A DNA stretch of 64,000 nt. Origin: Actinomycetes bacterium (GTDB taxonomy: Bacteria > Bacillota > Sulfobacillia > Sulfobacillales > JAIMBI01). The notes beneath the pieces were generated by a model that did not search any database, was not told the DNA's origin, and worked only from the letters and a program-made list of their open reading frames with translations. Of the stretch, positions 9,088-56,697 are shown in pieces. Location: contig JAIMBI010000001.1 in assembly GCA_023565505.1 (NCBI GenBank), forward strand, positions 124,001 through 188,000. Reading direction: 5' to 3'. Each line of letters starts with the position of its first letter. The first letter of the stretch is position 1. The translations under genes and the position numbers were made by a program.

Positions 9088-10495
9088 GTTGGCCGTCGTG
9101 GGGGCGGGGATCGCCGGGCTCGCCGCCGCTCGCCGGTTGGTCGAACGGGCGCCCGCCGGGACAGTCGTGCATGTGTTCGAGGCAAACGCTCGGGCCGGGG
9201 GTGCGATTCGGTCGGAGATCACGGCCGGGGTGGTGCTCGAAGCCGGCCCGGACTCGCTGTTGACGCGCAAGCCGGCGGCGGTGGAGCTGTGTCGGGCGTT
9301 GGGGCTGGCGGACGAACTCATCGGGCCCGCGCCGGGCGCGCGCGGTGCCGACATCTTCTGGGCCGGGCGGCTCCATCCCATCCCGCCGGGCCTGATGGCC
9401 GGCGTGCCCTCGCGCCCCGAAACCCTGTGGCGCAGCGGACTGCTCTCGTGGTCGGCCAAGTTGCGCGCGTTGGCGGACCTCTGGCGGCCGCCGAAGCCGA
9501 CCGAGCCGGATGCCAGCCTCGGCGAGCTGTTGGCCTACCGGTTCGGCCCCCAAGTCGTGGACCGGCTGGTCGCGCCGCTTCTTGCCGGGATTTATGCGGG
9601 GGACATCCGCACCTTGAGTCTCAAGGCGACCTTCCCCCAGTTGGCCGCTTGGCAGGACCAGTACGGCAGTCTCATCCGCGCCGCCCGCCGCCAGCCGCCG
9701 CCCGCCGGCCACCGGGGGCCTCCCTTTCTCACCCTTCGGACCGGGTTGGAGCGCATGGTCCGGGTGCTGGTCGAAAAGACGTCGGCGACGTGGCATTTCG
9801 GCGAGCCGGTGCGCCGGGTGGTGCCCGAAGGCGGGGGATTCCGTCTGGAGACGGACCGTGGCCGGTACGCGGTGGACGGCTTGGTGCTGGCCACACCGGC
9901 CCCCCGCACCCGGGAGATGCTGGGCGAAGCGGTGCCCGAGGCCGGCGCATTGTTGGCGGAGATTCCCTATACGGATCTGGCGGTTGTGGGGCTCCTCTTC
10001 CGCCCGGCGGCTTTTTCGCCGCCGCGGGACAAGACGGGGGTGCTGGTGCCGGCCGGCCAAGGTCTCGCCCTGACGGCGGTCACGTTCGTCGGGTCGAAGT
10101 GGGCGTACCCGGAGCCTCCTCCGTACGAGGCGGTGCGGGTGTTCCTCGGCCGGGCCGGGGACGCGGGCTTGCTCGAGCACGACGACGACGCCCTCGTGGC
10201 TCGCGCCCGGGCGGAATTGGAACGGGTGCTGGGGGTGCGCGCCGAGCCGGAGACCGCCCGGGTCTTCCGGCATCCGGCCGGAATGCCCCAGTACCGGGTC
10301 GGGCATCTTGATCGGGTGGCGCGGCTGGAACAGGTGCTGGCCCGGTGGCCGCAGCTGAGGCTCGCGGGCCAGGCCTACCACGGCGTCGGCATCCCGGACA
10401 ATGTCGCGGACGGGCACCGGGCCGCCGACGCGGTGTTGGCGGCCGTGGGGGCCGCCGTGCCGGTCGCTCTGGGGACACGGGGGGATGGAGCATGA
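9080..10495 (+). CDS. hemY: Coproporphyrinogen III oxidase / protoporphyrinogen oxidase family
   Basis: FAD flavoprotein of 471 residues that oxidises coproporphyrinogen III to coproporphyrin III (CgoX role). The FAD-binding start ELAVVGAGIAGLAAARRLVER and the ARAGGAIRSE segment are present. The C-terminal FAD motif is LRLAGQAYHGVGIPDNVADG. The GTG start lies within the hemH end, and the stop overlaps the next ATG (ATGA), so the downstream selenoprotein gene is in the same transcript. Membership of the HemY/CgoX family is clear. The product assignment follows from the accompanying hemQ. Confidence 0.94.
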   Translation: MPELAVVGAGIAGLAAARRLVERAPAGTVVHVFEANARAGGAIRSEITAGVVLEAGPDSLLTRKPAAVELCRALGLADELIGPAPGARGADIFWAGRLHPIPPGLMAGVPSRPETLWRSGLLSWSAKLRALADLWRPPKPTEPDASLGELLAYRFGPQVVDRLVAPLLAGIYAGDIRTLSLKATFPQLAAWQDQYGSLIRAARRQPPPAGHRGPPFLTLRTGLERMVRVLVEKTSATWHFGEPVRRVVPEGGGFRLETDRGRYAVDGLVLATPAPRTREMLGEAVPEAGALLAEIPYTDLAVVGLLFRPAAFSPPRDKTGVLVPAGQGLALTAVTFVGSKWAYPEPPPYEAVRVFLGRAGDAGLLEHDDDALVARARAELERVLGVRAEPETARVFRHPAGMPQYRVGHLDRVARLEQVLARWPQLRLAGQAYHGVGIPDNVADGHRAADAVLAAVGAAVPVALGTRGDGA

Positions 10496-10944
10496 CGGAG
10501 GATCCCGGGGACCGGCTGCCGCCGTTCTCCGCCGTGGACTTGGAGGGACGGCCGGTCTCGGCTGCGGCGCTGGAGCGGGACCCCACCCTGGTGGTGCTCC
10601 TCCGGGGTCTCGGCTGACCCTACTGCCGACGGGAGCTCAGGGAGCTTCAAAGCCGTGTCGCCGGATGGCGGGCGAGGGGTCTGACCGTTCTCGTGGTGGC
10701 CCCGGACCCGGCGGAGGTGGTTCGCCGGTTCTGGATCCGGGAAGGCCTCGACCTGTGGGTGGTGGCGGACGCCGGGCTGCTCCAAGTCCTGGGACAGCCG
10801 CGGCGGTGGTGGCCGGGTCGCCTGCCGGCCCTGCTCGCCGTCGCTCCCGGCGGCACGGTGGTCTGGCGACACCTCGGACGCAGCATGCGCGATCTGCCCG
10901 ACTGGGAGCAGGCGGTGGCCGCGCTCGCGCCCTGGCTCAAGTGA
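10492..10944 (+). CDS. Selenocysteine-containing peroxiredoxin-like protein (UxxC), TGA at codon 42
   Basis: Redoxin-fold protein of 150 residues read through one in-frame TGA (10615-10617). The N-terminus DRLPPFSAVDLEGRPVSAAALE and the beta strand LVVLLRGLG lead straight into U-PYCRRELRELQ, so Sec42 is the first position of a UxxC redox motif. The frame then stays open to 10944 (LTVLVVAPDPAEVV, LLAVAPGGTVVW), exactly the rest of an AhpC/TSA-like fold. A hairpin follows the TGA by 14 nt. The ATG overlaps the hemY stop (ATGA), so it is translated with the haem operon. The likely role is thiol-dependent reduction of peroxides, perhaps protecting haem synthesis; this is inferred. The end overlaps the convergent panE-like gene by eight bases. 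Confidence 0.88.
10632..10648 (+). promoter_or_regulatory. SECIS-like hairpin of the peroxiredoxin-like gene
   Basis: GGAGCTC-AGG-GAGCTTC forms a seven-base-pair stem (one G-U pair) with a three-base AGG loop, 14 nt after the TGA. Bacterial SECIS elements are short stem-loops just 3' of the UGA inside the coding region, and this one fits that layout. SelB recognition is inferred. Confidence 0.55.
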
Positions 10945-14394: not shown

Positions 14395-14631
14395 ATGGTC
14401 ATCGTGTACACGACGCCTACCTGACCCCACTGCCGGTCCCTGAAGCAGTTCTTGAAGGAGCGCAAGATCCCCTACCGCGAGGTGGATGTCACCAAGTCGG
14501 CGGCCGGTCTTGCGGCCTTGAAGAGCAAGTCAGGGCAGACCGGGGTCCCGGTCACGGACGTCAACGGGCAGATCATCATCGGCTTCAACCGTGCGAAGCT
14601 CGCGCGGGCGCTGGGTATCCGGTCGGAGTGA
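14395..14631 (+). CDS. Selenocysteine glutaredoxin-like protein (UPHC), TGA at codon 10
   Basis: Glutaredoxin-fold protein of 78 residues, read through TGA at 14422-14424. MVIVYTTPT-U-PHCRSLKQFL puts Sec10 at the N-terminal position of the classic CPxC motif. It is followed by IPYREVDVTKS, the cis-Pro region TGVPVTDVNGQIIIGFN and RAKLARALGI, the complete NrdH/glutaredoxin pattern. The local sequence TTPTUP is shared with the Sec-PDO protein encoded nearby. It is probably translated with the upstream DUF302 gene (7-nt gap) from the operator-controlled promoter. Its last 102 bases overlap the convergent CsoR-family frame. A thiol-disulfide or persulfide reductase role is likely; the partner is unknown. 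Confidence 0.9.
14429..14449 (+). promoter_or_regulatory. SECIS-like hairpin of the glutaredoxin gene
   Basis: ACTGC (14429-14433) pairs with GCAGT (14445-14449) around an 11-base loop that starts CGGTC, beginning four bases after the TGA. GGU in the loop recalls known bacterial SECIS loops. The stem is short, so support is moderate. Confidence 0.45.
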
Positions 14632-14928
14632 CGCGGCCTCGTGCGGGCGCTCGCTGAAAAACCCCGCCAGGACCGACCGGGCGGCGAGCGGGTCGGCCAG
14701 CACCGATGCCTCGGCCAGGCCCTCGACCAGACTGCAGGCGCGGACGATTTGCTTGACCCGCTCCAGCGCCCCCTCCACGGCCGCGAGCTGGGTGAGAATG
14801 GCGCGGCAACTTTCACGCCGCGCAATCATCCCTTCCAACCCGCGTACTTGGCCTTCGATTCGCTTGAGCCGACGCAGGAGTTCCTCTTCCTGCCAGAACA
14901 CTTGTCGTTCGCGCGTCGTACGCAACAC
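14530..14928 (-). CDS. CsoR/FrmR-family transcriptional repressor with atypical cysteines
   Basis: DUF156-type all-helical repressor. LLRRLKRIEGQVRGLEGMI, CRAILTQLAAVEGALERVKQIV and the segment RACSLVEGLAEA define the family. The first Cys (in ESCRAIL) is canonical. The position 25 residues later, His in FrmR and CsoR, is Ser here, with a Cys one residue earlier (RAC). The +29 Cys used by CsoR and CstR is absent. A copper site therefore looks broken and a thiol/persulfide sensor is plausible. The start is uncertain: GTG 14928 and GTG 14901 both work. The C-terminus runs about 34 residues antisense to the glutaredoxin gene, longer than most relatives. It is flanked by two matching operators. 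Confidence 0.85.
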   Translation of the reverse strand: MLRTTRERQVFWQEEELLRRLKRIEGQVRGLEGMIARRESCRAILTQLAAVEGALERVKQIVRACSLVEGLAEASVLADPLAARSVLAGFFSERPHEAASLRPDTQRPRELRTVEADDDLPVDVRDRDPGLP

Positions 14929-15223
14929 CTCCCTGGGGTGCCCGACCGGCTCGCTCCCTCCGACCGACCCCATCAGGCCGCTCTTGCCGGGGCGACGTCC
15001 GGCATCCCCGTGGGGCCGGCCGGACTCGACGCCCGGCCGCGGGCGGAGAGCCTGAGGCGGGTCCGGCGGCTGGGAATGCGCCTTCACGTGGGGCCGTGCC
15101 GTCCGCGGACGGAGAAGGCAGGCGCGCCGACGGACCCCTTCGGCGCATGCCGGTGAAACCTGGTGGGGTTTCCGGGGAAAACTTGCGTGCGGGCTGACGC
15201 CGACGCTATCCATAGGGTATTAT

Positions 15224-15360: not shown

Positions 15361-16011
15361 ATGGCGCTTATGTCAGACGAGATTCGTGAGGAAGTCCGGG
15401 AATATCTGGCGAAGATGACGGCCCCGGTGACCGTGGCCTACTACCCCAAGGACGGCGACGGGGCATCCGAGGCCATGGAACAACTCTTGAACGAGTTGGC
15501 GGCCGTCAACCCGCTCGTCCGTCCGGAGCGGCGGTCCGGACCACCCGAGGCCATCGCTCCCGAGCGGCCCGAGGACATCGAGAGCGTGGTCACGGTGCTG
15601 GAAGTGGACGGTCGCCGTACCGGCATCCGCTATCTGGGCTTCCCGGGGGGGCGGGAGTTCGGCACCTTCCTGGAGGCCCTGGTGACCGTGTCCACCGAGG
15701 CGGCCCCGACGCTGTCCGAGGCGACGCGGGCGTTTTTGGCCCAGATCCACCAGCCGGTGCACCTGGAGGTGTTCACCACCCCCACCTGACCGTACTGCCC
15801 CCGGGCGGTACGCCTGGCACACGAAATGGCGCGGGTGAACCCGCAGTGGATCACGGCGGACATGGTCGACGCCCAGAGCTTCGAGGCGCTGTCCATGCGC
15901 TTCGGGGTGATGAGCGTGCCCATGACCGTCGTCAACGGCAGTGAACAGGTGGTGGGGGCGGTCCCCGAAGGCCGCCTGGTGTCGGTCATCCGCCAGGCGG
16001 TGGGGGCCTGA
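15361..16011 (+). CDS. Selenocysteine PDO-type double-thioredoxin protein (UPYC), TGA at codon 143
   Basis: Protein disulfide oxidoreductase-like protein of 216 residues with two tandem thioredoxin folds. The N-terminal fold (residues 1-115) has lost its cysteines: the active-site strand VTVAYYPKDGDGASEAM carries none. The C-terminal fold reads HLEVFTTPT-U-PYCPRAVRLAHEM through TGA 15787-15789, replacing the first Cys of the archaeal-type CPYC motif by Sec143. The frame continues through the cis-Pro segment FGVMSVPMTVVNG to 16011. A nine-base-pair hairpin starts two nt after the TGA. The promoter carries a CsoR-type operator and the gene ends at a strong terminator. A low-potential disulfide or persulfide reductase is the likely function. 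Confidence 0.9.
15791..15812 (+). promoter_or_regulatory. SECIS-like hairpin of the PDO gene
   Basis: CGTACTGCC pairs with GGCGGTACG to give nine consecutive pairs (one T-G) closed by a four-base CCCG loop, starting two bases after the TGA. It is the most stable of the four hairpins. A stem this close to the UGA differs from the Escherichia coli layout, so SelB binding here is inferred. Confidence 0.55.
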
Positions 16012-25991: not shown

Positions 25992-26139
25992 GGCGGCCTT
26001 TTACGTCCGGACTTCCGCACGACGGCACGAAGCGTCCGCCGGCGGTCGCCGGGACTCCAGGGGCTATCGCTGTCGCGAGCGGTTGCTCAGGAGGCGTTCG
26101 CGAAGACGGTGCGGTAATCTACGCACCCGCCTGGACGGA

Positions 26140-26282
26140 TCGAACCTCCACCACGCCTACGAGGTTAGTTGTCGGGCTAGGACGGTGAAGTCGCCCCTGC
26201 TTGCGCATTAGCCCCTAGTTGCCGCCGGCAACCCATGTGATCCCCCGCCCACCGCGATCTGCGGCAGCTCGGCGACTCGCAT
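26140..26282 (-). ncRNA. ydaO/yuaA-type c-di-AMP riboswitch
   Basis: Reading the minus strand, the leader shows the conserved landmarks of this class in order: TCGCCGAG at the start, GGCGGGGGA followed by ATGGGTTGCC, AGGGGCTAATGCG, GGGGCGAC, GTCCTAGCCCGACA and the highly conserved CTAACCTCGTAGGCGTGG plus GGAGG (26145-26168). These match known ydaO sequences closely. It lies downstream of a TATAAT box and about 230 nt upstream of the GT20 gene. The family senses c-di-AMP and usually lowers expression of osmolyte, potassium and cell-wall genes; an osmolyte synthase fits well. Confidence 0.9.
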
Positions 26283-26307
26283 TCCAAGCGACTGCCTGTC
26301 ACGGTTG

Positions 26308-56145: not shown

Positions 56146-56355
56146 GTGCTGAAAGTCCGTGTCGAAGCACTGAAGTCGGTCATGGCGGAGCGGGGCTGGG
56201 GGGAGCGCCAGCTGGCCGAGGCGTTGGGCGTCGACCACTCCCACGTCAACCGCGTTCTCCATCAGAAGCGGCAGCCGGGGCCGAAGTTCATCGCCGGCGT
56301 GATCCGGCTCGGCCTTCGGTTCGAGGACATCTTCTGCGACGACGGCTCCCGGTGA
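56146..56355 (+). CDS. Small XRE-like DNA-binding protein
   Basis: Protein of 69 residues made of one helix-turn-helix domain: VRVEALKSVMAERGWGERQLAEALGVDHSHVNRVLHQKRQPGP in outline, then FIAGVIRLGLRFEDIFCDD. It resembles minimal Cro-like repressors. GTG start follows GGGGGAGG. It is divergent from the other XRE gene, and both have TTGCC-N4-GGCAA operators. It is convergent with the SelW-like gene across a perfect hairpin. Confidence 0.82.
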   Translation: MLKVRVEALKSVMAERGWGERQLAEALGVDHSHVNRVLHQKRQPGPKFIAGVIRLGLRFEDIFCDDGSR

Positions 56356-56366
56356 TCCGGGAGCCG
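56343..56366. terminator. Hairpin between the small XRE gene and the SelW-like gene
   Basis: CGGCTCCCGG-TGAT-CCGGGAGCCG is a perfect ten-pair stem that contains the XRE stop codon in its loop. No T-run follows, so termination is likely but not certain, possibly for both convergent genes. Confidence 0.6.
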
Positions 56367-56388: not shown

Positions 56389-56637
56389 CTACACCCGGGC
56401 CTTGACGAGGCTCAGCACCTCGCCCGGATTGGGGAAGCGGCCGGTTTCCTTTTTCGAGTACACCGCGTTCCCGTCGACGCGGACCGTGAACACCCCGCCG
56501 CTCGACGGAATCAATGTGGCCTGCTCGACATCGTTCTTCATGGCACCCAGGATCTCGCCCACCACACGGGTGGCGTGATCGAGGTAGCCTCAGGACGTGC
56601 AGTACTCGATCTCAATCCGCGGCTTGGCCACCTTCAT
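56389..56637 (-). CDS. SelW/Rdx-family selenoprotein (CxxU), TGA at codon 16
   Basis: Thioredoxin-like Rdx protein of 82 residues, read through TGA at 56592-56590. RIEIEYCTS-U-GYLDHATRVVGEIL gives the CxxU motif (Cys13, Sec16) at the usual position. It is followed by ATLIPSSGGVFTVRVDGNAVYSKKETGRFPNPGEVLSLV, the complete SelW/SelT-type ending with GxFxVxxxG and SKxxxGRFP. The ATG lies seven bases after GGAGGG. A stop at the TGA would leave a meaningless 15-residue peptide. A stable bulged stem-loop follows the TGA. The function in this family is redox, partner unknown. Confidence 0.92.
56551..56580 (-). promoter_or_regulatory. SECIS-like stem-loop of the SelW-like gene
   Basis: On the minus strand, GATC-A-CGCCACC pairs with GGT-G-GGCG-A-GATC around a CGTGT loop: four, four and three pairs with one A-A mismatch and one bulged G. 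It starts nine bases after the TGA, and its loop about 21 bases after, as in known bacterial SECIS elements. Confidence 0.65.
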
Positions 56638-56697
56638 CCCTCCCTCACGGATGACCCCCGGCGCGGGCTCGGCCGCCCGTTCCGTCGGGGTAGTGAG

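Follow-up and report, generated by a model that had tools for sequence, protein, structure and literature searches.

The 64,000-nucleotide stretch of DNA analysed here (the window) carries a short minus-strand frame that runs from 56637 to 56389 and translates, with the in-frame TGA written as U, as MKVAKPRIEIEYCTSUGYLDHATRVVGEILGAMKNDVEQATLIPSSGGVFTVRVDGNAVYSKKETGRFPNPGEVLSLVKARV*. The earlier note had placed a SelW/Rdx-type selenoprotein at 56389-56637, and those coordinates stand with the gene assigned to the minus strand; a plus-strand gene over the same interval was rejected because translation of that strand gives nonsense. The locus comprises the following features:

56389..56631, minus strand: putative selW-like (Rdx) selenoprotein gene, GTG start at 56631-56629, TAG stop at 56391-56389, 80 amino acids
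56637, minus strand: alternative selW start, the ATG of the earlier note, 82 amino acids
56592-56590, minus strand: in-frame TGA, putative selenocysteine codon of a CTSU motif and the single TGA in the selW frame
56638..56646, minus strand: probable ribosome-binding site GAGGGAGGG, as read from the sequence

The GTG at 56631 is more likely to be the start than the ATG at 56637, because the first residue of homologs aligns with codon 3 of the frame given above (MAKPLVEIEYC in locus L018 and MAKDIEIEYC in L109) and because the purine-rich GAGGGAGGG lies 6 nt from the GTG as opposed to 0 nt from the ATG, a spacing that favors the GTG as the partner of a Shine-Dalgarno sequence. The putative selenocysteine would be residue 14 counted from the GTG and 16 from the ATG; the CxxU motif previously reported at residues 13-16 is indeed present, with C-T-S-U renumbered to 11-14 by the GTG start.

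For profile searches against Pfam and NCBIfam, the TGA was translated as Cys. The product matches Pfam Rdx (PF10262) at 77.9-78.0 bits (E 6.7e-22) against a cut-off of 22.6 and covers profile positions 1-73 of 74, which bears out the family that had been proposed from the sequence and for which an HMM search had been suggested. It also scores above the cut-off of the NCBIfam model CXXU_selWTH; its score for the equivalog NF041051 SelTWH_Campy, 86.7 bits, falls just under the 88 required, and the product was not filed there. Across an alignment of 30 sequences, with TGA again read as C, the invariant columns are both CxxU/C motif positions, A20, G45, G46, and F48.

An AlphaFold2 model of the product (pLDDT 94.7) has the order beta-alpha-beta-beta-beta-alpha, with a first predicted strand at E5-11 and a first helix at H17-30, placing the CTSU motif between the two. 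Against the PDB, the highest-ranking Foldseek matches are without exception SelW-related proteins of bacteria (2fa8, 2obk, 2oka, 3dex, 2ojl, and 2p0g), and the model superposes on bacterial SelW-like crystal structures with a TM score of about 0.9; the product is therefore predicted to adopt the thioredoxin-like fold of solved Rdx members. For 2fa8, the SelW-related crystal structure of Agrobacterium tumefaciens Atu0228, the TM score is 0.91-0.95 and the sequence match has an E value of 2.4e-16; this protein carries a CxxC motif (CTQC in the alignment), whereas the protein described here has CxxU. Mouse SelW (2npb) and human MIEN1/C17orf37 (2ljk) share the Rdx/thioredoxin-like fold with the model but are distant from it, at 23-25% identity and TM scores by query of 0.52-0.66.

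The frame is broken at codon 16 under translation table 11, as would be expected if the TGA were an ordinary stop and the Rdx gene decayed or interrupted in frame, or if sequencing had misread a Cys codon as TGA. We examined this codon in 89 distinct homologous loci drawn from two collections. It is TGA in 77 of the 89 and Cys (TGC or TGT) in the remaining 12, with no third residue, and the leading Cys of the motif is kept in every case. In the order to which the window's genome belongs, Rdx is present in 18 of 41 genomes and contains one in-frame TGA in all 18; a genome of this order (G037) encodes the same Rdx protein, residue for residue, as Sulfobacillus harzensis (L101/L026). The Cys homologs lend the stop or error reading some support, but the same codon is TGA in 76 other loci. 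Downstream of the TGA, differences from close relatives at codon positions 1, 2, and 3 number 6, 2, and 17 for L018 and 3, 3, and 13 for L109, and this excess at third positions argues that the downstream part is translated and constrained as protein. The in-frame UGA aligns, at a redox-active position, with the Cys or Sec of homologs, as is expected of a bacterial selenoprotein.

The host genome is a draft of 3.1 Mb in 49 contigs, estimated to be 97.6% complete with 6.6% contamination. We found a tRNA-Sec with a TCA anticodon (UCA in RNA) as well as profile matches to SelA (561 bits), SelB (357 bits), and SelD (367 bits), the SelD match itself containing an in-frame TGA. The absence of this machinery, or a Cys codon on resequencing, had been named as the findings that would overturn a selenoprotein assignment. 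To the extent that sequence can tell, the machinery is present, and a sequencing error is countered by the recurrence of the TGA in every Rdx-bearing genome of the order and in most homologs. SelA, SelB, and tRNA-Sec lie on contigs other than that of the window, which, in a draft with this level of contamination, counts against the assignment. Across the order, SelA exceeds its cut-off in 35 of 41 genomes, including 16 of the 18 that bear Rdx. Of the other two, G028 has an Rdx gene with TGA together with SelB and tRNA-Sec, and G001 (the source of L109), although 97% complete, has a TGA-containing Rdx gene and SelB but neither SelA nor tRNA-Sec above the cut-off; this absence probably reflects an assembly gap with missing contigs, or otherwise a recent loss of selenocysteine synthesis. 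In the profile search of the 41 genomes, G018 and G026, which have neither SelA nor SelB over the cut-off, showed no Rdx match at all, a further point against the stop reading. Conservation of the TGA across homologs leads us to regard a stop, pseudogene, or sequencing error as effectively refuted, and as barely credible for this gene. A Trp or Cys reading of the codon was likewise rejected, given the tRNA-Sec with its UCA anticodon and homologs that have only Cys or TGA. Judged from these comparisons, the UGA almost certainly encodes selenocysteine, and we hold with high confidence that this is a genuine selW-like (Rdx) selenoprotein gene on the minus strand whose UGA would be read as Sec by way of a downstream hairpin.

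The predicted fold of the selW mRNA places such a hairpin directly after the UGA, with these elements:

56542..56589, minus strand: SECIS-like stem-loop directly after the UGA, MFE -24.1 kcal/mol
56556..56575, minus strand: upper stem of 7 bp with one bulged base (G), together with the apical loop
56568-56564, minus strand: apical loop CGUGU of 5 nt, with G as the second loop position followed by U

Published constraints for bacterial SECIS elements (bSECIS) are a loop of 3-9 nt with a G in the first two positions, a distance of 16-37 nt after the UGA, an upper stem of 4-16 bp, and an MFE of at most -7.5 kcal/mol (PMC13188914). The selW hairpin, whose loop begins 21 nt past the UGA, agrees with all of them. 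The earlier description of a well-formed SECIS-like stem-loop is accurate in its loop and spacing, but the fold carries less weight than that description implied: the same criteria are passed by 37% of random window positions and by 40% of all window TGAs, and because so many random positions pass in a window of 71% GC, the hairpin alone is weak evidence. Dinucleotide shuffling gave z scores of only -0.8 to -2.1, varying with the stretch folded. The reading frame and homology of the gene go far beyond what chance would give, which does not hold for the hairpin by itself.

Synonymous-codon redraws gave a mean z of -0.55 for TGA relatives versus -0.36 for Cys homologs, and codon choice strongly favors folding only in the window's selW and a few close relatives. 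Since the excess of folding energy is weak in relatives, we relied instead on a positional comparison. Of the 77 TGA homologs, 56 (73%) have a model hairpin immediately behind the TGA, versus 3 of 12 Cys homologs (25%; Fisher p 0.002, with relatedness ignored). When the start of the comparison is moved 3-18 codons downstream, 11-18 of the 77 (14-23%) have such a hairpin; moved 3 codons upstream, it still picks up the hairpin behind the TGA, as expected (50 of 77). Three apical base pairs are retained in 79-96% of TGA homologs, and the lower stem is not. This comparison, which is better evidence than the fold alone, supports a putative hairpin that is correctly placed after the UGA and has the expected loop; conservation of the long bulged stem is not supported.

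These observations also bear on a reading in which the selenoprotein is real and the long hairpin incidental, Sec insertion needing only the apical element of 3 bp and 5 nt or some other nearby signal. Such a reading would account for the ease with which the SECIS model is satisfied at random positions of this GC-rich window, for relatives that do without the lower stem, and for codon choice that in most of them does not favor folding. The covariation at pair 22-32 (A-U/G-C) also falls on codon positions 1 and 2, where it tracks amino-acid changes, and Cys homologs pair there too. Pair 21-34, on the other hand, forms in 68% of TGA versus 17% of Cys homologs, TGA homologs repeatedly show the loop at this position with its G, the hairpin is specific to the spot after the UGA, and essentially none of 150 synonymous redraws matches the window's own hairpin (z -2.67). 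We consider an incidental long hairpin rather unlikely, and continue with the reading in which the hairpin downstream of the UGA directs Sec insertion.

By that reading, the mRNA hairpin that closely follows the UGA at 56592-56590 would recruit SelB carrying Sec-tRNA(Sec), and the codon would be read through as selenocysteine. The product would be an 80-residue thioredoxin-like protein with a C-x-x-U redox center lying after strand 1 and before helix 1 and, from what is known of the family, most likely a small cytosolic selenol/thiol oxidoreductase. In the catalytic cycle we infer, the selenolate would attack an oxidized or disulfide substrate, the vicinal Cys would resolve the selenenylsulfide, and a cellular thiol system would then reduce the protein.

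We also scanned the window for in-frame TGAs in frames with coding-like composition, and four convincing redox-motif frames emerged, the Rdx gene included. The other three, which confirm the earlier count of this gene as the fourth selenoprotein candidate in 64 kb, are UxxC frames:

10492-10938, plus strand: AhpC/TSA-like (Prx-like) thiol oxidoreductase, GUPYC, TGA at 10615, 52.3 bits
14395-14631, plus strand: glutaredoxin, UPHC, TGA at 14422, 64.1 bits
15361-16011, plus strand: Thioredoxin_3/glutaredoxin-like protein, UPYC, TGA at 15787, 54.9 bits

The sequence after the TGA of the AhpC/TSA-like gene passes the SECIS model; neither the glutaredoxin nor the Thioredoxin_3 gene passes a simple SECIS test in the MFE fold. 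A gene for a CsoR-type metal-sensing repressor (14530-15213, minus strand) is flanked by these last two. Elsewhere in the genome, family matches with an in-frame TGA mark SelD, formate dehydrogenase, and one or two further glutaredoxin-like proteins as candidates. The proposal that the organism uses selenocysteine widely is thus supported by TGAs in Rdx, the AhpC/TSA-like gene, at least two glutaredoxin/thioredoxin-like genes, SelD, and formate dehydrogenase. We give little credence to a further step, in which the Sec Rdx is the sole Rdx form in this order and partners the Sec AhpC, glutaredoxin, and thioredoxin as one selenium-dependent thiol system; gene linkage offers nothing for it, the selW neighbors not being common to relatives in the flanks examined.

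SelW-like selenoproteins have been catalogued in bacteria since 2005-2006: they were one of the families tallied in the Sargasso Sea (PMC1088965) and appear in a 2006 survey of complete bacterial genomes that found them in Symbiobacterium thermophilum, Alkaliphilus, and Desulfotomaculum (PMC1794560). According to that survey, Cys forms of the family are few or absent in organisms that use Sec (PMC1794560), the same pattern as seen here. Recent reviews tabulate it as PF10262 with CxxU (PMC9312934, PMC13188914). The gene described here shares with the bacterial SELENOW-like family its Pfam assignment, CxxU motif, single Sec, and SECIS directly after the UGA, and is an ordinary further member of it; structurally there is no difference, and what is new is the lineage, a Sulfobacillus relative. 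A Sec-containing formate dehydrogenase is known from Sulfobacillus (PMC4378227), and selW adds evidence that this Sulfobacillus-related order uses selenocysteine beyond that enzyme. The finding matters mainly for annotation: under automatic gene calling with table 11, selW would end at the UGA or be missed.

The gene lies among genes for a DUF1275 protein, an aldo/keto reductase, an isochorismatase, and a transglycosylase. When the flanking proteins (the helix-turn-helix-like gene excluded) were compared by tblastn with 1.5-3 kb flanks of 97 selW-bearing loci, one weak match was returned; the neighbors are not common to relatives within these flanks and give no functional clue. A consensus scan for promoters and terminators found nothing. 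Rdx relatives occur on 44 plasmid records, all below 60% identity to the selW product, so nothing ties the gene to a plasmid and a plasmid-borne origin was rejected. Convergent with selW is a short plus-strand frame at about 56146-56355, from its reading a candidate XRE-type helix-turn-helix protein (LAEALGVDHSHVNRVLHQKR). At the end of this frame lies a perfect 10-bp inverted repeat, CGGCTCCCGG-TGAT-CCGGGAGCCG (56343-56366), possibly a shared transcription end, although it has no T run. Farther off in the window, a c-di-AMP riboswitch (ydaO/yuaA leader) matches at 26139-26284 on the minus strand with 49.3 bits.
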